From: Centipeda artemidis DSM 19719
GTDB taxonomy: Bacteria; Bacillota; Negativicutes; Selenomonadales; Selenomonadaceae
Assembly (NCBI RefSeq): GCF_000426665.1
Contig: NZ_AUFU01000015.1
Location: 1 to 58,318 of the forward strand
DNA: 58,318 nt
Direction of reading: 5' to 3'
In this document: piece by piece, positions 2,828 to 56,586 of the stretch
How positions within the stretch are numbered: the stretch's first letter is position 1
How the letters are laid out: each line of letters begins with the position of its first letter
Translations under genes and position numbers: made by a program
Notes under the pieces: model-generated
The model's input: the letters and a program-made list of their open reading frames with translations, nothing else
What the model was told of the DNA's origin: nothing
The model's database searches: none

Positions 2828-3844
2828 TCATATAGGTATTTCAGTCTTTATATTTTCATCATAGTCCATAATGGAGTCAAAATTCAATGTTATACTATGC
2901 TTATCTCCTTTATGTGTCTCGATTTCCGAAAGATCCCAAAAGCCTTCTGTCGATGTATAAAAAGGGATAGAAGGAAATGGCATAAAATTAAACTCAGATT
3001 CATTATCCTCCCCGCCAATCCTTGGAATTTCTACAAATAAGGAAAAGCAACCATACGTCAAATTAAAAAGCACATATGGTTTATTCCAAATGTATCTTTT
3101 TCGACGAAACAATATATAATGCGGATATTTCGTTACATTAAATCCAGGAATCATTTTATATCTAACAAGTAATTTTCTATTTTTATAAAAATTTTTATGC
3201 TCTGATTCAAGAATCCATTTTATAGCATCAGTAAATAATGGCAACTCTTCAGTTGGCATAACCGTTATCGCCATTTTTACGATGGCTTTAAACACAGCAA
3301 TGGGGCTACACTTAGCTATTGGCCGTGCAATTGTAATAGCATTATACGATAAATCCAGATATTGTTTATTGACTTCTTTACAACAACAAATAGCCGGTTC
3401 ATCCTCCTTAAAGGAAATTTTTATACAATAGTCAGCACATTCAATAGTACGTTTTGAGCAAGGTATTTTAAATTCACATTTTTGTAGACCTTTTTTTCCT
3501 TTTATTTGCATAATGCTGTGATACAAGGAAAAAAATTTCGCATAATCATTTTCAATAGTATTTCCAAAGTACTGGTTACAAACATCACATTCATAGTTTG
3601 ATACTAGAGTTTTATTTCCAATTGATTCTGGAAAAGCGTGAGCTATTTTCTTAAAAGTTACCGCCTCTCCCCCTTTACCACAAAATCTACATCTTTTTTC
3701 TGATCCCCTTAGAATCTTTTTCCCATATCCTGGTTTCAACAATCTTGATTTATCGTCGAAATTCTGCGTCCGCAGGACATCATAGTATGACTCATAATAT
3801 TTTTTTGCTTTGGGATCGATGTAATCTCTAACACCAATCTGCAT
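2828..3844 (-). CDS. HNH_5-like nuclease protein, 338 residues
   Basis: Near residues 52-100 the protein has a zinc-binding HNH-like core: CRFCGK, then TFKKIAHAFPESIGN, then YECDVCNQYFGN. The histidine in AHAFP and the asparagine in CDVCNQ fit the H-N-H arrangement with two Cys pairs. The rest has no domain I recognise. A 467-residue relative lies inside the prophage at 25773-27176 with the same core (CRFCGR, AHAIPLALGN, YECDSCNHFFG) and a matching later segment (KAIVKMAI...WILESEH against KALVKIAL...WIMNKED). The gene is AT-rich in a GC-rich setting. A GGGGGATTGTT ribosome site precedes the ATG, and TGTTATACT about 100 nt upstream may be its -10. A role in defence or in element mobility is possible but not shown. 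Confidence 0.65.
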   Translation of the reverse strand: MQIGVRDYIDPKAKKYYESYYDVLRTQNFDDKSRLLKPGYGKKILRGSEKRCRFCGKGGEAVTFKKIAHAFPESIGNKTLVSNYECDVCNQYFGNTIENDYAKFFSLYHSIMQIKGKKGLQKCEFKIPCSKRTIECADYCIKISFKEDEPAICCCKEVNKQYLDLSYNAITIARPIAKCSPIAVFKAIVKMAITVMPTEELPLFTDAIKWILESEHKNFYKNRKLLVRYKMIPGFNVTKYPHYILFRRKRYIWNKPYVLFNLTYGCFSLFVEIPRIGGEDNESEFNFMPFPSIPFYTSTEGFWDLSEIETHKGDKHSITLNFDSIMDYDENIKTEIPI

Positions 3845-22276: not shown

Positions 22277-23525
22277 CACTTACTCCCTTCTGTCTGCCGG
22301 CAAACAGCCCTGCGTCCCTCAGTTTCGTCATGTTCCCGTTGATGAGATACAAATCTCCACCCTCGTCTGCTTCGATGGGATTCATGTCCTCGAGACTGCG
22401 GATGTCGTTCGCGGAGAGCCATCCGTTCTGACGCCCAACAGCATAGCCCTCCATGCGGCTCTTGTAGTCTCCGCGCAGCAGCCCGTCTACGTTGAAGCGG
22501 ATGAAGTAGTCCTTCCGCTCCTTATCTGTCAGAAGTGCTTTCTGCAGGGACTGCTCCCACCGCACCACCCACGGATTCAAAGTGTATTTAACGAACTCCA
22601 AGGACTGTTGCTCGATATTGGAAAACGAGGATTTCTCCAAGTCTCCGACCATATGCGGCGGCACACGGTAGAGCCGTGCAATCTCGTCGATCTGAAACTT
22701 CCTCGTCTCAAGGAACTGCGCCTCCTCGGGTGGAATGGCAATCTGCTGATACTTCACGCCTTCCTCGAGCACGGCGATTCTGCCCGTGTTCATCGTACCG
22801 CCGTAGACGGCGTGCCAACTCTCTCGCAGCTTTGACGGGTCTTTGAGCACCCCCGGATGTTCGAGTACGCCTCCCGGACGCGCACCATTCTTGAAGAATG
22901 CCGCGCCATACTCTTCCGTTGCAAGCGCAATGCCAATGGCGTTCTTTGCCATAGCGATGGGAGAATAGCCGACAAGTCCGTCGAATCCGAGTCCCGGAAT
23001 ATGCAGCACATCCTCACGTCGCAGACGAATCTGCCCCTTGTCCGCAAAATTCGGATTCTCCTCCGTGGTTCTCGTGTAGGTGTAGTAAAGCTCACCCGTG
23101 TAGCTGTCGCGGCTGACCTCCATCTTGTCCGGGAGGAGCGGATAAAGTCCGAGAACACGTCCTCTTCCATCCCGCAAAATTTGTGCGTACGCATTCCCCC
23201 ACAAAAGAAGGTGACTCATCATCGTTTCGCGAAATATAAAGGAGGTCATCTCGGGATTCGGCGCATCGTGGAGCAGGAAGTACAGCGGATGCTCCGGCAC
23301 ACGCTCCTTTCCCTGCCCTTGGTAGGCGTAGACGTGAAGCGGCAGCCCTGCGATGGACTCCGCGAGGATACGGACACAGGCATAGACTGCCGTTGTCTGC
23401 ATTGCAGTACGCTCATTGACCGGCTTGCCCGCCGCCGTCTGGCCAAACAAAAAGGACAAGCCGCCGATATGATTTCTGGGCTTGTCCCGAGAACGGAAGA
23501 TTTTTGTAAAGAAATTCACGAGCAT
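22266..23525 (-). CDS. Phage portal protein (HK97 family)
   Basis: About 419 residues. Seen are AVYACVRILAESIAGLPL, HPLYFLLHDAPNPEMT, LLLWGNAYAQILRDGRG and the C-terminal FSNIEQQSLEFVKYTL stretch. Together these give the standard signature of HK97 portals. It forms the dodecameric DNA gate at one capsid vertex. AAGGAG lies just before the start. Only 31 nt separate its start from an antisense ACT-domain gene, which lies where terL normally directly joins the portal gene. Confidence 0.95.
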   Translation of the reverse strand: MLVNFFTKIFRSRDKPRNHIGGLSFLFGQTAAGKPVNERTAMQTTAVYACVRILAESIAGLPLHVYAYQGQGKERVPEHPLYFLLHDAPNPEMTSFIFRETMMSHLLLWGNAYAQILRDGRGRVLGLYPLLPDKMEVSRDSYTGELYYTYTRTTEENPNFADKGQIRLRREDVLHIPGLGFDGLVGYSPIAMAKNAIGIALATEEYGAAFFKNGARPGGVLEHPGVLKDPSKLRESWHAVYGGTMNTGRIAVLEEGVKYQQIAIPPEEAQFLETRKFQIDEIARLYRVPPHMVGDLEKSSFSNIEQQSLEFVKYTLNPWVVRWEQSLQKALLTDKERKDYFIRFNVDGLLRGDYKSRMEGYAVGRQNGWLSANDIRSLEDMNPIEADEGGDLYLINGNMTKLRDAGLFAGRQKGVSDET

Positions 23526-23556
23526 CACGCTCCTTCGGAATTATGAAAGGAAAAAA

Positions 23557-23922
23557 ATGAACTTACAAAAAATAGATTATGCTTTAAGCGTATGCAAAGT
23601 TACATCACCAGATACGATTGACTTGAATAAGGACTTTTACTTCGTTGGAAAAACCGATGAAGAAATATCCCTCGTGTGCAAAACATCCGACACGCCGAAC
23701 AATACCGTAGAACGCGATGATGGTTGGAAGGCTTTCAGGATACAGGGTACTTTGGATTTTTCTCTCATTGGGATATTGTCCAAAATCTCCACCCTCCTTG
23801 CTGAAAACAAAATCGGTATCTTCGCCATATCCACATACAACACCGATTATATTTTGGTCAAGGAGGAGAACTTCAACGCCGCGTTGACAATATTGGGGAA
23901 AAACGGATACACCATAATCTAA
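23557..23922 (+). CDS. ACT-domain protein (ACT_7 type), antisense moron
   Basis: A 121-residue protein. The N-terminal half ends in the segment ERDDGWKAFRIQGTLDFSL; the C-terminal half has GILSKISTLLAENKIGIFAI, then STYNTDYILVKEENFNAAL. This is the two-ACT fold of small proteins that bind amino acids. Its metabolic role is unknown. It is AT-rich and runs against the phage operon between terL and portal. Its stop overlaps the terL stop, and there is almost no room for a promoter upstream except inside the portal gene. GAAAGG precedes the ATG at 23557; a longer frame from 23482 would overlap the portal gene. Confidence 0.75.
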   Translation: MNLQKIDYALSVCKVTSPDTIDLNKDFYFVGKTDEEISLVCKTSDTPNNTVERDDGWKAFRIQGTLDFSLIGILSKISTLLAENKIGIFAISTYNTDYILVKEENFNAALTILGKNGYTII

Positions 23923-25520
23923 AACACCAAAATTCCTCGCTCATCATAGACAGATGCGGAGGTATCATTCCCACACCGGATCGCACGGTCAAGTGCCATG
24001 ATGAGCGCAATCACACCGTCGATCTTCTCCATAGATTTCTCCTTGTCCGCCTTAATGTTCCCTGCAGGATCGGTGCGAATGAAGATGTTGTCTGCCATCC
24101 AGCGCAGGACGGGATGTCCGCCGTGCGCTATTTTCTTTTCCAACGTCAGCTTCATCAGCTCCTTGGTCGGCGGGCTCATATCCTTGAAGCCCTGCCCGAA
24201 CGGGACAACGGTGAATCCCATTCCTTCGAGGTTCTGCACCATCTGCACCGCGCCCCATCGGTCAAAGGCAATCTCACGGATGTTGTACTTCTCACCCAGT
24301 TTCTCGATGAACGTCTCGATGAATCCGTAATGCACAACATTCCCCTCGGTAGTCATGAGAAAGCCCTGCTTCTCCCACACGTCATACGGTACATGATCGC
24401 GCCGTACACGAAGTTCGATATTCTCCTCGGGAATCCAGAAGTACGGAAGCACGGCAAACGGCTCATCTTCCTCCGTCGGAGGAAACACGAGGACAAATGC
24501 CGTAATATCCATCGTGGAGGAAAGGTCAAGCCCGCCGTAGCAAACACGCCCCTCCAAGGACTCGGCATCCACAGGTATGGCACACGCATCCCACTTGTCC
24601 ATTGGCATCCACCGAACGGACTGCTTGACCCATTGATTCAACCGCAGCTGACGAAAACTGTTCTCCTCGGCGGGATTCTGCCGTGCAGAGTCGCAGGCCG
24701 CCTGTACCTTGTCGATGCCGACCGTAATGCCAAGCGACGGATTCGACCGTTTCCAGACCTCGGGGTCTGTCCAGTCCTCATCTTCCTTTGCTCCGTAGAT
24801 CACAGGATAGAAGGTCGGATCAATCTTTCGCCCTTCGAGAATATCCTTTGCTTTCTGGTGTGTCTCGTAGCAGATGGACTGCGTATCCGTTCCCGCCGTA
24901 GTGATGAGGAAGTAAAGCGGCTGCATTCGCGCATCGCCGGAGCCTTTCGTCATAACGTCAAAGAGCTTGCGATTCGGCTGCGTGTGCAGTTCGTCGAACA
25001 CAACGCCGTGGATATTGAAGCCGTGCTTTGAATATGCCTCTGCCGAAAGCACCTGATAGAAGCTGTTCGTCGGCAGATACACCATCCGTTTCTGGGAGGC
25101 AAGGATCTTCACTCGCTTGCCGAGTGCGGGACACATACGCACCATGTCGGCTGCGACCTCGAATACGATGCTCGCCTGTTGACGGTCAGCGGCGCAGCCG
25201 TAAACCTCGGCACGCTCCTCTCCGTCGCCGCAGCAAAGGAGAAGCGCGACGGCAGCCGCGAGTTCGCTCTTCCCCATTTTCTTGGGAATCTCCACATACG
25301 CCGTGTTGAACTGGCGATACCCGTTCGGCTTCAGAATTCCGAAAATGTCTCGGATAATGCGCTCCTGCCAGTCGATCAGCTCGAAGGGCTTTCCTGCCCA
25401 CGTCCCCTTCGTATGGCACAGGCACTCGATGAATCCCACAGCATAGTCCGCAGAGGATTTGTCATAGTGTGCGTCCTCTGCCATAAACTTTGTCGGTTTA
25501 TAGTCCATCAGTTTCCGCAT
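23919..25520 (-). CDS. Terminase large subunit, complete
   Basis: About 533 residues. The ATPase domain has the Walker A region EIPKKMGKSELAAAVALLL (near residue 77), the adenine-binding upstream segment WQERIIRDIFG, and Walker B plus catalytic Glu in GVVFDELHTQPN. The nuclease domain has YGGLDLSSTMD (first acidic residue), EIAFDRWGAVQMV and the final DRAIRCGND region. It packages DNA at the portal. The ATG at 25520 has GGAGGTGATTTT upstream. The first 83 codons are nearly repeated at 27717-27962, where the similarity ends at the PKK of Walker A. Confidence 0.95.
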   Translation of the reverse strand: MRKLMDYKPTKFMAEDAHYDKSSADYAVGFIECLCHTKGTWAGKPFELIDWQERIIRDIFGILKPNGYRQFNTAYVEIPKKMGKSELAAAVALLLCCGDGEERAEVYGCAADRQQASIVFEVAADMVRMCPALGKRVKILASQKRMVYLPTNSFYQVLSAEAYSKHGFNIHGVVFDELHTQPNRKLFDVMTKGSGDARMQPLYFLITTAGTDTQSICYETHQKAKDILEGRKIDPTFYPVIYGAKEDEDWTDPEVWKRSNPSLGITVGIDKVQAACDSARQNPAEENSFRQLRLNQWVKQSVRWMPMDKWDACAIPVDAESLEGRVCYGGLDLSSTMDITAFVLVFPPTEEDEPFAVLPYFWIPEENIELRVRRDHVPYDVWEKQGFLMTTEGNVVHYGFIETFIEKLGEKYNIREIAFDRWGAVQMVQNLEGMGFTVVPFGQGFKDMSPPTKELMKLTLEKKIAHGGHPVLRWMADNIFIRTDPAGNIKADKEKSMEKIDGVIALIMALDRAIRCGNDTSASVYDERGILVF

Positions 25521-25772
25521 AAAATCACCTCCCTCCAAATGTATGTAAACAAGAAAACCACCCGTAGGCGGTTCTCGACAGATTGCGTATTCGTTTAGCT
25601 GCGCATCAAGTCCTGCGATTTTTGTAAAACCAGAAATCCCAACTACTTGAAATGCTGTGTATTTTGCCTATAATGCAGGCAACAATGTTATTTTTCCTTT
25701 ATCCAAGATCCTATATTGATACCATCACCGTGTGTTAGAGAATAAAATAGCAAAAAGGATTTTTTCAAAAAA

Positions 25773-27176
25773 ATGCCTATGAAGGAAAATACACTATACG
25801 AGCAGAATAAACAACTAGCTTTACACAAATTTTCTACCTACACATTAATAATTATGAGAGGAATGATATCCATGCTTATCTGCACCATGGGTCGAATAAT
25901 TGATATTGCGTTTGAAAATTTTAACGAAAACGTATTGTTTCGCCCATTCATAACAAAAGAAGTGACTCCCAAACTCATCCTACCTTTGCAGATGACCAAA
26001 GAGATTATGGATAAGATTCATGCGCAAAAACAAGAATATATCAATCATCTGCCACCGCGAATCCATAGATATTTTTCTTTTTTTGACAATATATGTGAAG
26101 GAGAATGGTTCTATATTTTTCCAGAAGAACTACTCCATTGCATAGAAAAGGACAACAGAGGAAAGTTTGCGGATTGGCATCAGGTTTACCTTCGCTATAA
26201 GAACATGGGGGTAGAAGAAGAGAAAATAAGCGAATACATGAAGGAGTTCGGAGAAAGACTCAACATGTATCTGGCACCTTTGGAAAATCTGTATGAAATT
26301 GAATGCTATACGAGTAGGCAAGATAAACTGTATCTTGGAGAGAAAGAAAAATCGAAAAGAGTTTGCCGTTTTTGTGGTAGGACAAAGCCAAAAGTTACGT
26401 TTAAGGATGCTGCACATGCGATTCCGTTAGCCCTTGGAAACCATATTTTCTTTAACAACTACGAGTGTGACTCTTGCAATCATTTTTTCGGTGAAGAAAT
26501 AGAACCGCATCTGAGGCAGTGGATTGCGACTATGATTTTCTTCTCTAGAACACGTGGACGATCAGGTGTACCAGATTTGATATTTGAAAATGGTATGATG
26601 AAGTACGACAATGATAAAAACCTGTTCATCATCGTCCAAAAAGGAAATGGAACAGGAAAAGATCCTAAAACGGATGGACAAGAGGCAGAAATTCCATTGA
26701 TTCAGCTCGGAGATGGAACACCATACATTCCTTCCAAAGCCTATAAGGCATTGGTAAAAATCGCCCTATCCTTTATTCCTGATGAAAAGATGAAAATGTT
26801 CGAAAATACTGTTTCTTGGATAATGAACAAAGAGGATAACAGAGATCTGCCAAAGATTGCTTATATGCTGTCCACGAAACCTGTGATGAACCCTCAACCA
26901 GAGATCACATTGTTTTTGCGAAAGGAAGACTCCCCTTCTGACATTCCTTATGCCGTCGCATTCCTTTCTATGTGTGGGATGGATATTGTTTATATAATAC
27001 CGTTTTGTATATCTGATGGAACAAATTTTGCATTGCCCTGTGCCTATGAAAAATATTGGAGCACATTTGCATTGTATAGCGCAGTTCCCGGCTGGAACTT
27101 TGAGAATCTGTCACGTAATACAGCAGTGACACCAAGGTTGAATCTTCGTTTTCAGCAAAACAAGAATAGCTTGTAA
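25773..27176 (+). CDS. HNH_5-like nuclease protein, 467 residues, antisense within packaging region
   Basis: The core near residues 200-250 reads CRFCGRTKPKVTFKDAAHA, then IPLALGNHIFFNN and YECDSCNHFFGEE. This is the same HNH_5-like arrangement as in the protein at 2828-3844, and later segments also match (KALVKIALSFIPDE, VSWIMNKED). The N-terminal 150 residues are helical and unique. The gene is AT-rich, on the plus strand, and lies between a terminase/intein fragment and the complete terminase. A homing-type nuclease is one possibility, a defence protein another. The start is uncertain: 25773 has no good ribosome site, while ATG 25872 has GAGAGGA upstream. Confidence 0.65.
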   Translation: MPMKENTLYEQNKQLALHKFSTYTLIIMRGMISMLICTMGRIIDIAFENFNENVLFRPFITKEVTPKLILPLQMTKEIMDKIHAQKQEYINHLPPRIHRYFSFFDNICEGEWFYIFPEELLHCIEKDNRGKFADWHQVYLRYKNMGVEEEKISEYMKEFGERLNMYLAPLENLYEIECYTSRQDKLYLGEKEKSKRVCRFCGRTKPKVTFKDAAHAIPLALGNHIFFNNYECDSCNHFFGEEIEPHLRQWIATMIFFSRTRGRSGVPDLIFENGMMKYDNDKNLFIIVQKGNGTGKDPKTDGQEAEIPLIQLGDGTPYIPSKAYKALVKIALSFIPDEKMKMFENTVSWIMNKEDNRDLPKIAYMLSTKPVMNPQPEITLFLRKEDSPSDIPYAVAFLSMCGMDIVYIIPFCISDGTNFALPCAYEKYWSTFALYSAVPGWNFENLSRNTAVTPRLNLRFQQNKNSL

Positions 27177-27230
27177 TGAAGTATATAGTCTTTCGTAAAT
27201 TATTTATTTACACCAAGAAAGCAAGGGGTG

Positions 27231-27962
27231 TCATACATTCTTCGTAACCGCCTGTACGTCCTTATGGCAGATGGCGATCTCAGGTTTTTTGGCACATCTG
27301 TTGCCAAGCCAGTATCCGTAAAGATACGGGTCAACAGGAAGATCGCACGCCCCGAAATTAAGCATCTTTGCCACAGGGATACGGATAATGGAGCGGCGTG
27401 CCTCCTTCTCGTTATCCCGATATTTTTCTCTGTGCCTCATCGTTCGGCGATAGATTTCGCCCGTTGTCCAAAGGACGGATTGCGGCTTCCCGATGATGTG
27501 ATCCACATTCCAGAGATGTCGCTCTCCCGCGACGATGGACGATCCGTCGCAAAAGGTCAATCGATAGGCTTGCTCGGTGTCATCCACATCGCTTTTGGCG
27601 ACAACACGGCAGGGCTGTCCGTTTTCATCAAAAACGGTATCTCCCACGCGAATGTCGCCCATTGTTGTAAACCCGCTCGGTGTAGGGATTTTCGTGTCGA
27701 GAGCAAGCTGTTTTCACTGTTTCTTGGGAATCTCCACATACGCCGTGTTGAACTGCCGATACCCGTTCGGCTTCAAAATTCCGAAAATATCTCGGATAAT
27801 GCGTTCCTGCCAGTCAATCAGCTCGAAGGGCTTTCCTGCCCACGTCCCCTTCGTATGGCACAGGCACTCAATAAATCCCACGGCATAGTCCGCAGCGGCT
27901 TTGTCATAGTGCGCGTCCTCTGCCATGAACTTCGTCGGTGTGTAGTCCGTCAGTTTCCGCAA
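27231..27962 (-). pseudogene. Terminase 5' fragment fused to an intein relic
   Basis: The first 82 codons repeat the terminase N-terminus (KLTDYTPTKFMAEDAHYD to EIPKKQ). One TGA (27714-27716) interrupts, and the same frame continues KQLALDTKIPTPSGFTTMGD, IRVGDTVFDENGQPC, then GERHLWNV, then LPVDPYLYGYWLG. These are intein block A, block B and the start of a LAGLIDADG endonuclease (block C). The frame ends soon after, with no intein C-terminus or C-extein. The intein lacks Cys at position 1 but has the block B His and Trp, as in class 3 inteins. The TGA sits where Walker A should have Gly, and GGA to TGA is one change. It cannot make a working terminase. Confidence 0.8.
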
Positions 27963-28020
27963 GCAATCACCCCCATCAAAAAAAGCCGCTGTCAGCGACT
28001 CACAATATCTGAAACAAGAA

Positions 28021-28041
28021 GCAGCCCCGAAGGGCTGTTTT
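28021..28041 (-). terminator. Hairpin after the 92-residue gene
   Basis: AGCCC and GGGCT arms with a CGAA loop (minus strand ACAGCCCTTCGGGGCTGC followed by TTCTTG). A very similar hairpin follows the gene at 28494 (28452-28471). Weak T-run, so this may be a terminator or a processing stem. Confidence 0.45.
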
Positions 28042-28056
28042 GCCTCTTGGCGCGGC

Positions 28057-28335
28057 TTAGATGCGCTTCATGCACCAAGCCATCGCGTGCCCGCCGTCCT
28101 CGAAAAGCTCCGTAGCGGCTTCGACGAGGTTCAGGCGGCATTCGATGTCTGCCAGTCCCGTCTCCTCCGGCGTTTCGACCATCTCGTAGACGGCTGCGTG
28201 GAATCCCCAGCATTCCATCCCGACGACAAGGATCTGCTCGCCGTAGCGCAGGATCGCGCCGCTCGTCCCAAACCGCATCCCATCGAGGTACTCCATCGTG
28301 GTGGTCTGCGGCCATCTTGCTTCTGCGTTCTTCAT
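28057..28335 (-). CDS. Small phage protein, unrecognised
   Basis: A 92-residue acidic protein (TMEYLDGMRFGTSGAILRYG, EQILVVGMECWGFHAAVYEM, EETGLADIECRLNLVEAATE). GAGGAACACAAA precedes the ATG. I do not recognise a family. It belongs to the run of small genes between the amidase and terL. Confidence 0.6.
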   Translation of the reverse strand: MKNAEARWPQTTTMEYLDGMRFGTSGAILRYGEQILVVGMECWGFHAAVYEMVETPEETGLADIECRLNLVEAATELFEDGGHAMAWCMKRI

Positions 28336-52018: not shown

Positions 52019-53116
52019 TCAAGCTACTCTCCCAATCTCATTACATTGTATCGTTATTGATGTTACGTCGTTCATCGCCACAATGAGGATGATACTCGAC
52101 GGGAATGAAAGCGTTGCGTTCGCGCGCGCTACGGTGATGGTTCTGTCCTCAATCGGCTCTCTCAGTACCTCGAGCGTCTTCTTGCTAAACTCGGGCAGCT
52201 CGTCGAGGAACAGAACGCCGTGATGTGCGAGCGTCACCTCGCCGGGGCGCGGCACGCTCCCGCCGCCAATCATTGCAACCGTTGACGAGGTGTGATGCGG
52301 GCTGCGGAACGGGCGGTGCGTGACGAGTCCCGCCTCCTTCCCGAGCAGCCCCGAGATGCTGTAGATCTTCGTGACCTCGATGGCCTCTTCCTTCGTCATC
52401 TCCGGCAGAATTGAACTCATGCGACGTGCAAGCATTGTCTTGCCCGAGCCCGGCACACCGACCATGAGGACGTTATGACCCCCTGCCGCCGCAATCTCCA
52501 AGGCGCGCTTTGCCTGATACTGTCCCTGCACATCCGCGAAGTCATCTGCAAAGATGGGGTCTTCCGACTGCTTCGTTTGTGTGGGAACGGCGGGCGTCAG
52601 TGTGACTTCCCCTGTGAGATGGCGAATGAGCTGTGCGAGATTTTCCACGGCATAGACGCGCAGTCCGTCGATGAGAAGCGCCTCGTCCACGTTTTTGCCT
52701 GCAACATAAAAATCCGTCAGCCCCCGCTCCCGCGCTGTAATCGCCATCGGCAGAACGCCGCTCACGGGACGGCAGTTCCCATCGAGCGAAAGCTCCGCGG
52801 AAAAGAGCGCGTGCTCCACAGACTCTGCCGGCACCAGTCCATAGGCGACGAGCAGTCCCACCGCCATCGGAAGGTCAAGTCCGGAGCTGTCCTTTCGCAC
52901 GTCGGCAGGCGCAAGATTCACCGTCACGCGCTCCTGCCGGAGCTGAAAGCCGGAGTTGCGAATCGCAGTGCGCACGCGCTCCTTCGATTCCTTCACCGAC
53001 GTATCGGGCAGCCCCACCAGCTCAAATCCGGGCAAACCAAAAGAAGCGTCAACCTCCACATCGATAATCCGTCCATCTATCCCGAGGGTCGTCGCACCAT
53101 AGGTCTTTGCAAACAA
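52019..53116 (-). pseudogene. comM: comM/yifB 5' fragment, copy 2 (truncated)
   Basis: A TTG-start copy ([20 protein letters not shown] onwards) with the ChlI-like domain, Walker [11 protein letters not shown] and Walker [11 protein letters not shown]. Homology to comM ends at IVAMN, the same codon as in copy 1; the frame then reads [10 protein letters not shown] and stops after a few residues at 52019. The C-terminal third of comM is missing. By eye it is about 85-90 percent identical to copy 1 over the shared part. It keeps the extended -10 promoter (53150-53155) and is followed by the second AbiH gene on the same strand. Confidence 0.9.
52038..52069 (-). repeat. 32-nt block abutting the comM break, copy 2 (candidate att half-site)
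   Basis: Follows ATGAAC of comM and reads GACGTAACATCAATAACG onwards on the minus strand. It matches the block at 1594-1625 with three differences by eye. Outside it the two loci are unrelated on the AbiH side. Confidence 0.6.
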
Positions 53117-56125: not shown

Positions 56126-56399
56126 TAGGATGCAAGGAGACCGACCGCCATCGGCAGATCAAGCCCCGCGCTGTCCTTTCGCACATCGGCAGGAGCAAGA
56201 TTCACCGTCACGCGCTCCTGCCGCAGCTGAAAGCCCGAATTGCGAATCGCCTACGTACGCGCTCCTTCGACTCCTTCGCCGACGTATCGGGAAGCCCTAC
56301 GAGTTCAAAGCCCGGCAGCCCCGGAGACACATCCACCTCAACGTCGATAATCCGTCCATCTATCCCGAGGGTCGTCGCACCATAAGTCTTTGCAAACAA
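56126..56399 (-). pseudogene. comM: comM/yifB 5' fragment, copy 3 (frameshifted)
   Basis: TTG-start as in the other copies, then [20 protein letters not shown] and normal comM sequence to KERVR. A one-base loss near 56250 shifts the frame, after which the DNA still matches comM (codons for [18 protein letters not shown]) until TAGGATGCAAGGA at 56126, about codon 93. The break is therefore much earlier than in copies 1 and 2. The promoter is intact. The helicase starts 40 nt beyond the break. Being next to ogt it may be the oldest, native 5' end. Confidence 0.85.
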
Positions 56400-56432
56400 C
56401 GGCCTTCCCTCCCACGTTTTAAATATAAGAAA

Positions 56433-56438
56433 ATTATA
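56433..56438 (-). promoter_or_regulatory. comM promoter, extended -10 (copy 3)
   Basis: TGTTATAAT on the minus strand, in the same context as the other copies. Upstream similarity runs to AAAAGAGATTCC near 56480 and then stops. It should drive the helicase operon through the truncated comM. Confidence 0.6.
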
Positions 56439-56586
56439 ACACAGGATAGGGTATGTTGCCTAATGATTCTTTGCAACAAAAAAGAGATTCCTATATCATA
56501 TTTTGATTGAAAACACACGGGGGACTATCGCAGCGCAATTATTTCCCTTATAATAGAAAACTACATCAACTGACAGGAGAACGCCC

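Follow-up and report, generated by a model that had tools for sequence, protein, structure and literature searches.

Organization of the terL region

The window, the whole stretch of 58,318 nucleotides that was analysed, contains a prophage whose host is an oral Selenomonas-type bacterium. In the terL region of this prophage, read along the minus strand, an Nmad4-domain gene is followed by 82 codons of terL, a TGA, a Lys codon, and codons 1–159 of 340 of an intein. Downstream of the break in the intein there is an antisense HNH_5 gene and then a complete, intein-free terL. The parts and the minus-strand order described in an earlier, sequence-only reading, including the antisense HNH gene, were all found at the places given there. 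The features are listed below; L numbers are terL loci in the comparison and C numbers are contigs.

28057–28335, minus strand: Nmad4-domain gene, part of the backbone, upstream of terL (Pfam Nmad4, E 1.3e-22)
27963–28056, minus strand: type 1 terL leader (like L005, L013, and L033)
28037–28022 and 28001–27983, minus strand: two terminator-like hairpins in the type 1 leader (pattern matches)
27714–27962, minus strand: terL 5′ copy, 82 codons then TGA
27714–27716, minus strand: TGA in the Walker A Gly position (GGA in relatives)
27713–27711, minus strand: Lys codon after the TGA, in frame
27234–27710, minus strand: N-terminal 159 codons of an apparent class 3 intein, comprising block A, block B, and the beginning of a LAGLIDADG domain, with Q1 at 27710–27708 (similarity to the L013 intein)
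27231–27233, minus strand: stop codon at the junction of intein relic and cassette (similarity to L012, L013, and L158 ends)
25598–27230, plus strand: low-GC cargo cassette (GC; matches almost only in records of its own genome)
25773–27176, plus strand: HNH_5 protein gene, 467 aa, antisense to terL (Pfam, PHROG)
25647–25674, plus strand: promoter-like site TTGAAA-16-TATAAT upstream of the HNH gene (consensus match)
25539–25597, minus strand: type 2 terL leader (similarity to L012 and L034)
25576–25553, minus strand: terminator-like hairpin in the type 2 leader (pattern match)
23919–25538, minus strand: complete intein-free terL ORF (Pfam TerL domains, TerL_nuclease E 1.6e-45)

The complete terL probably starts at the ATG at 25520. 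The GC content of terL, the intein relic, the terL fragment, and the Nmad4 gene is 52–61 %; it is 31–38 % over the parts of the cassette and 42 % in the type 2 leader. In a panel of 28 loci, which contains duplicates where one phage has both IMG and genome records, the Nmad4 gene is upstream of terL in 26, being absent there in L167 and L168.

The gap between terL and the portal gene is also variable. It holds an ACT_7-domain gene in the window (23482–23922) and, by eye, a pair of RelE-like and helix-turn-helix genes in the sister prophage on contig C16 (L005:5159–5802). At a greater distance, comM-like (Mg_chelatase) genes are present at 1527–2717 and 52019–53116, 79 % alike over 1207 bases, and a third comM-like stretch at about 56126–56490 is 88–90 % alike to parts of the other two. 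These three stretches bracket the prophage region and are probably the comM case to which the earlier reading referred.

The intein relic and its intact relatives

Over 159 codons, the relic and the 340 aa intein of L013 align at 87.4 % (E 3e-92), and no match to the C-terminal part of that intein was found in the window (best E 0.25). Within the whole genome the ORF of the relic matches only itself; relatives of this ORF are present in 13 of the 151 family genomes, its own included. Its LAGLIDADG content is confined to the first motif region (DPYLYGYWLG).

Intact inteins were sought in related loci with a pattern of GK followed by an xLxLxTxI-like start, and an end with HN before Ser, Thr, or Cys, which set no condition on position 1, on HxW, on the Cys of block F, or on the Thr before HN. 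Eighteen distinct open inteins were identified, with Gln (13) or Ala (5) at position 1. All 18 have HxW (17 HLW and one HDW), a Cys in a CIxV-type stretch of block F, and Thr before the terminal HN (a THN end). The relic itself has Gln at position 1, neither Cys nor Ser, together with HLW; its C-terminal half is gone. Aligned against 6rix, a solved class 3 DnaB intein chain, a mini-intein relative has its block F Cys opposite Cys124 and its HxW opposite His65/Trp67. PMC7664689 defines the WCT motif and, for a class 3 DnaB intein, assigns catalytic roles to Cys124 and His65; the matching positions suggest that 6rix is the DnaB intein of that paper.

It appears from these alignments that the relic derives from a class 3 intein with a LAGLIDADG domain, inserted in terL at Walker A. 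The relatives therefore support what had been proposed for the fragment from the window alone, and comparison with those that have an intein at this Walker A site confirmed insertion between GK and S (GK/S).

Among the 10 nearest intein relatives, four are of 340 aa with YGYW and MDSDG, and six are of 169 aa with neither. Two size classes are present in the family, 340 aa (L012, L013, L112, and L113) and 169 aa (L014–L019 and L169), and these terL inteins are a natural series for endonuclease loss. Separately, the intein-bearing terL of L114/L157 (G016:C12) has decayed by stops and its middle part is missing.

The two terL 5′ copies and the TGA codon

Alignment of the two terL 5′ copies over 262 bases shows 22 differences (8.4 %), 17 of them coding (11 at third positions) and five upstream, which bears out the divergence between the copies that had been reported. 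The point at which their similarity ends is indeed Walker A, as was also reported, but it does not stand as the edge of an element: the site is the intein insertion point (GK/S), and the copies diverge there because one continues as intein and the other as terL. The fewest protein changes in the terL 5′ copy are seen against the intein-bearing L169 (1 nonsynonymous, 12 synonymous). At the protein level, the complete terL is 96 % identical to the terL of the prophage on C16; this sister prophage has a single intact intein-free terL adjoining Nmad4.

In all 17 intein-bearing loci listed, which include several duplicates where one place is known from two records, the Gly codon is GGA, in agreement with the suggested change from GGA to TGA in the window. 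The context of this codon is Gln-Gly-Lys-Gln in 16 of the 17 and Asn-Gly-Lys-Gln in L119. A degenerate pattern containing the TGA has one match in the window and none in any of 100 shuffles; its one match in the viral collection is in a record of the same genome. The TGA is known from assembly base calls.

Leader types and the slot before terL

The terL fragment carries a type 1 leader and the complete terL carries a type 2 leader. With a leader called type 1 where the hairpin at the Nmad4 end lies within 140 bases, the leaders of the panel are type 1 at 19 loci, type 2 at three (L012, L034, and L160), and of another kind at one; the leader pattern did not match five of the 28 loci (L014, L166, L167, L168, and L170). 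Both types are found together in the window, and in none of the 23 scored panel loci. The type 1 leader also directly follows Nmad4 in C16, L013, and L033. A type 1 terL with a long intein is known in L013 and L158, and a type 2 intein-free terL in L034 and L160.

The type 2 leader of the window is 81 % alike to L012 and 84 % alike to L034 over 58 bases, with no similarity to either farther upstream. The match ends at 25597, near the end of a GGACT-like gene in L012. Between Nmad4 and terL in L034 (4441–5942) there are Amidoligase_2 and GGACT-like genes (Pfam); the same pair is seen by eye in L012, L166, and L175, and L160 has an Nmad4–terL gap of similar size. Judged from these comparisons, the HNH cassette seems to occupy the position where relatives carry cargo, before a terL with a type 2 leader. 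Over the first 83 codons of the complete copy, pS is 0.29, 0.31, and 0.52 to L034, L160, and L012, respectively, and 0.22 to the type 1 loci L017, L019, and L033. Being lower to type 1 than to type 2 carriers, these values indicate that it is the leader alone of the complete copy that is type 2.

The HNH gene and its cassette

The HNH gene matches Pfam HNH_5 (E 3.7e-11) and PHROG 26663 (E 5.4e-27), and no family for its protein was found in PADLOC or NCBIfam. No other ORF >95 aa is present in the cassette, and there is no recombinase among the cassette ORFs of this size. The promoter-like site has 11 of the 12 consensus bases; as the region contains eight such sites and shuffles contain 5.9, it is taken as a consensus match only. 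Comparison of exact words at the cassette ends found one 10-base direct match, set back from the termini, and inverted matches of 8 bases in the flanking DNA. Among the compared loci, matches to the cassette are to records of its own genome, plus one of 27 bases at E 0.45.

In viral contigs the HNH protein matched only its own record, and in genome contigs a search sensitive to close relatives only found none. The protein is matched in two of the 188 other family genomes, both times partially and at 30–39 %, and in none of 397 other genomes sampled from the phylum. Distant relatives were found in 92 plasmid records, 77 of them from Acinetobacter, at 28.5 % in the matches listed, with 76 of the 92 spanning at least 80 % of the HNH protein; two phage records also contain relatives. 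These relatives are accessory genes, mostly on Acinetobacter plasmids. The context viewed for one of them, apparently one region in two records, contains uncharacterised genes and insertion sequences, with no terL or intein nearby. A single-sequence structural model has a mean pLDDT of 34.5 and is unusable. A weak PDB sequence match, to Phi92_gp137 (E 0.029), spans 86 residues and lies outside the HNH stretch.

Since the relatives are mostly plasmid accessory genes and the one context viewed has neither terL nor an intein, nothing in the relatives or that context points to cutting of terL or a homing role for the HNH protein. That it serves as cargo, for instance in defence, is a guess. A second HNH_5 gene is present in the window at 2828–3844, and an AbiH-family gene at 362–1477.

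Recurrence of the arrangement

A terL match was found in 69 of the 189 genomes of the host family, and near relatives include Selenomonas species and Centipeda periodontii. The 256 loci compared include 237 with the N-part of terL and 233 with both ends. A second terL N-part is present in four loci (L008, L010, L011, and L127), all of which are copies of the window's own region. Elsewhere, no second case was seen among the 233 loci with both terL ends; many of these are from the best 80 matches per search and some are duplicates, and rare cases may be missed. In L148 and L159 the terL match is split into adjoining parts, which suggests a single copy with a broken frame. A seeming insertion in the terL of L174 proved to be a run of N and was rejected.

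Origin of the locus

The locus is very probably a scar left by recombination, with a young intein pseudogene, and the prophage family to which it belongs is highly mosaic. The best reading is of a one-off, produced by ordinary mosaicism, and not of a new kind of element. The ancestor would have had a type 1 leader right after Nmad4 and a terL split at GK/S by a class 3 LAGLIDADG intein. Donor DNA from a relative, consisting of an HNH-filled cargo slot, a type 2 leader, and an intein-free terL, would have been joined non-homologously into the intein, with the break at 27231–27234. The C-terminal half of the intein and the 3′ end of the old terL would have been lost in this way, and the complete intein-free terL would have taken over packaging. 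The stranded 5′ piece would then have been free to decay, its Gly codon becoming TGA.

We infer the joining in one step, the direction of transfer, and the parentage of the parts. The HNH cassette and type 2 terL are likewise joined as a unit by inference, as no phage was found in which this cassette is beside a type 2 terL. The right-hand crossover is not placeable due to backbone mosaicism, with the best-matching relative changing at intervals of a few hundred bases. With its Walker A broken, a terL would need a helper copy for packaging, either in cis or on C16, so the TGA probably arose when the second copy was already present.

The scar looks young by comparison with its relatives. At otherwise invariant sites, intein codons 1–115 have no synonymous and one nonsynonymous private change (10 sequences), and the terL 5′ copy (83 codons, 20 sequences) has no synonymous and one nonsynonymous private change, which is the TGA. 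This is a weak measure of youth, since private changes at invariant sites are few for most sequences. The last 49 codons of the relic, set against three long inteins (four sequences), have six synonymous and seven nonsynonymous private changes, so the endonuclease part may already have been decaying before the break.

A different origin had been suggested by analogy with comM. The HNH cassette would then be mobile, with the intein or Walker A of terL as its target, and would bring along a new 5′ half for the gene. The order of the parts fits this, a full terL frame lies downstream, and the comM-like copies flanking the prophage imply that target duplication occurs nearby. However, exact words give no clear terminal repeats, the cassette has no ORF >95 aa except the HNH gene, the intein C-half is missing, the leader type is known from other phages, there is no recurrence among the 233 loci compared, and the searches of viral and genome contigs found no close relative of the HNH protein; this origin is very unlikely. 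An insertion that supplies a second 5′ half is unsupported, as the second 5′ half is part of a complete terL with a leader type known in L012, L034, and L160. Such a target-regenerating element was rejected, based on the leader types, the ends, and the lack of recurrence among the loci compared. About equally improbable is an aborted homing event, in which the intein endonuclease cut an intein-free terL at Walker A, repair copied 477 bp of intein, and the end was joined at the HNH cassette of another phage genome copy. The N-part of the intein does start at the homing site and stop within the endonuclease domain, and two mycobacteriophage TerL inteins cut intein-free terL DNA according to the excerpt of PMC5050341 used here; the terL 5′ copy is, however, close to intein-bearing alleles and the copying step is therefore unneeded.

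Retention of the 82-residue TerL piece or the intein relic for a function, as a regulator or a dominant-negative packaging peptide, would be consistent with a frame that is open through both pieces apart from the TGA and with the few private changes. Youth accounts equally for these few changes, no second case is seen among the loci listed, and the intein tail has many nonsynonymous changes, making such a function extremely unlikely. An assembly or base-call artefact merits just as little credence. Every record with this order is of one genome, and the order is known from assemblies, but the differences at 22 of 262 bases are not those of a copied contig end and argue against the second copy being an assembly duplicate. 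A chimera with the C16 prophage would join across 9–14 % difference, and the window is one contig of a genome that is 99.86 % complete. The recombination scar is preferred over these alternatives.

Comparison with known systems and significance

In the excerpted text of PMC5050341, TerL1-a and other mycobacteriophage TerL inteins directly follow the Walker A Lys and precede the hydroxyl residue, the same site (GK/S) as in the intact relatives reported here. By contrast with TerL1-a, in the window the intein-bearing copy is truncated, TGA replaces the Gly codon ahead of the insertion site, and a complete intein-free copy is present in cis. The PDB sequence matches of the relic are mainly to mycobacterial-type DnaB inteins, and it matches DnaB inteins (6bs8, 6rix, and 6riy) over the first 53–57 listed residues, whereas a whole mini-intein relative matches them at the C-terminal block too; the host gene differs from that of the DnaB inteins and the relic is without the C-terminal half.

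A decayed class 3 intein has already been described, to judge from the available portion of PMC3196547. Arth_1007 of Arthrobacter FB24 is likewise a decayed class 3 intein in a genome, and in that portion its intein pseudogene is given as the first such case to the authors' knowledge. The intein of Arth_1007 is inactive and its short flanks belong to no known gene, whereas here the N-terminal half is within a truncated terL and the replacement adjoins it. A narrow look at the literature on Selenomonas and inteins, by title and the start of the abstract, found no report on this.

Cargo genes of phages are known as morons. The HNH cassette is similar to these in its low GC, antisense orientation, promoter-like site, and location in a slot that other genes fill in some relatives, and the HNH gene, with its putative promoter, is candidate cargo of this kind.

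The intein was apparently lost by bypass, the tandem intein-free copy freeing the essential gene from selection, with a nonsense change and truncation then removing the intein. It is unlikely that the joining was prompted by a cut from the HNH protein or from the endonuclease of the intein itself. Tori and Perler suggest (PMC3196547) that a non-splicing intein may persist where another phage, or the host, provides what the extein would do, and loss by bypass fits this suggestion. The locus would provide one apparently young example in which an intein in an essential gene has been lost without precise excision, and it comes with a family of terL inteins, both long and mini, now mapped in Selenomonas-type prophages.
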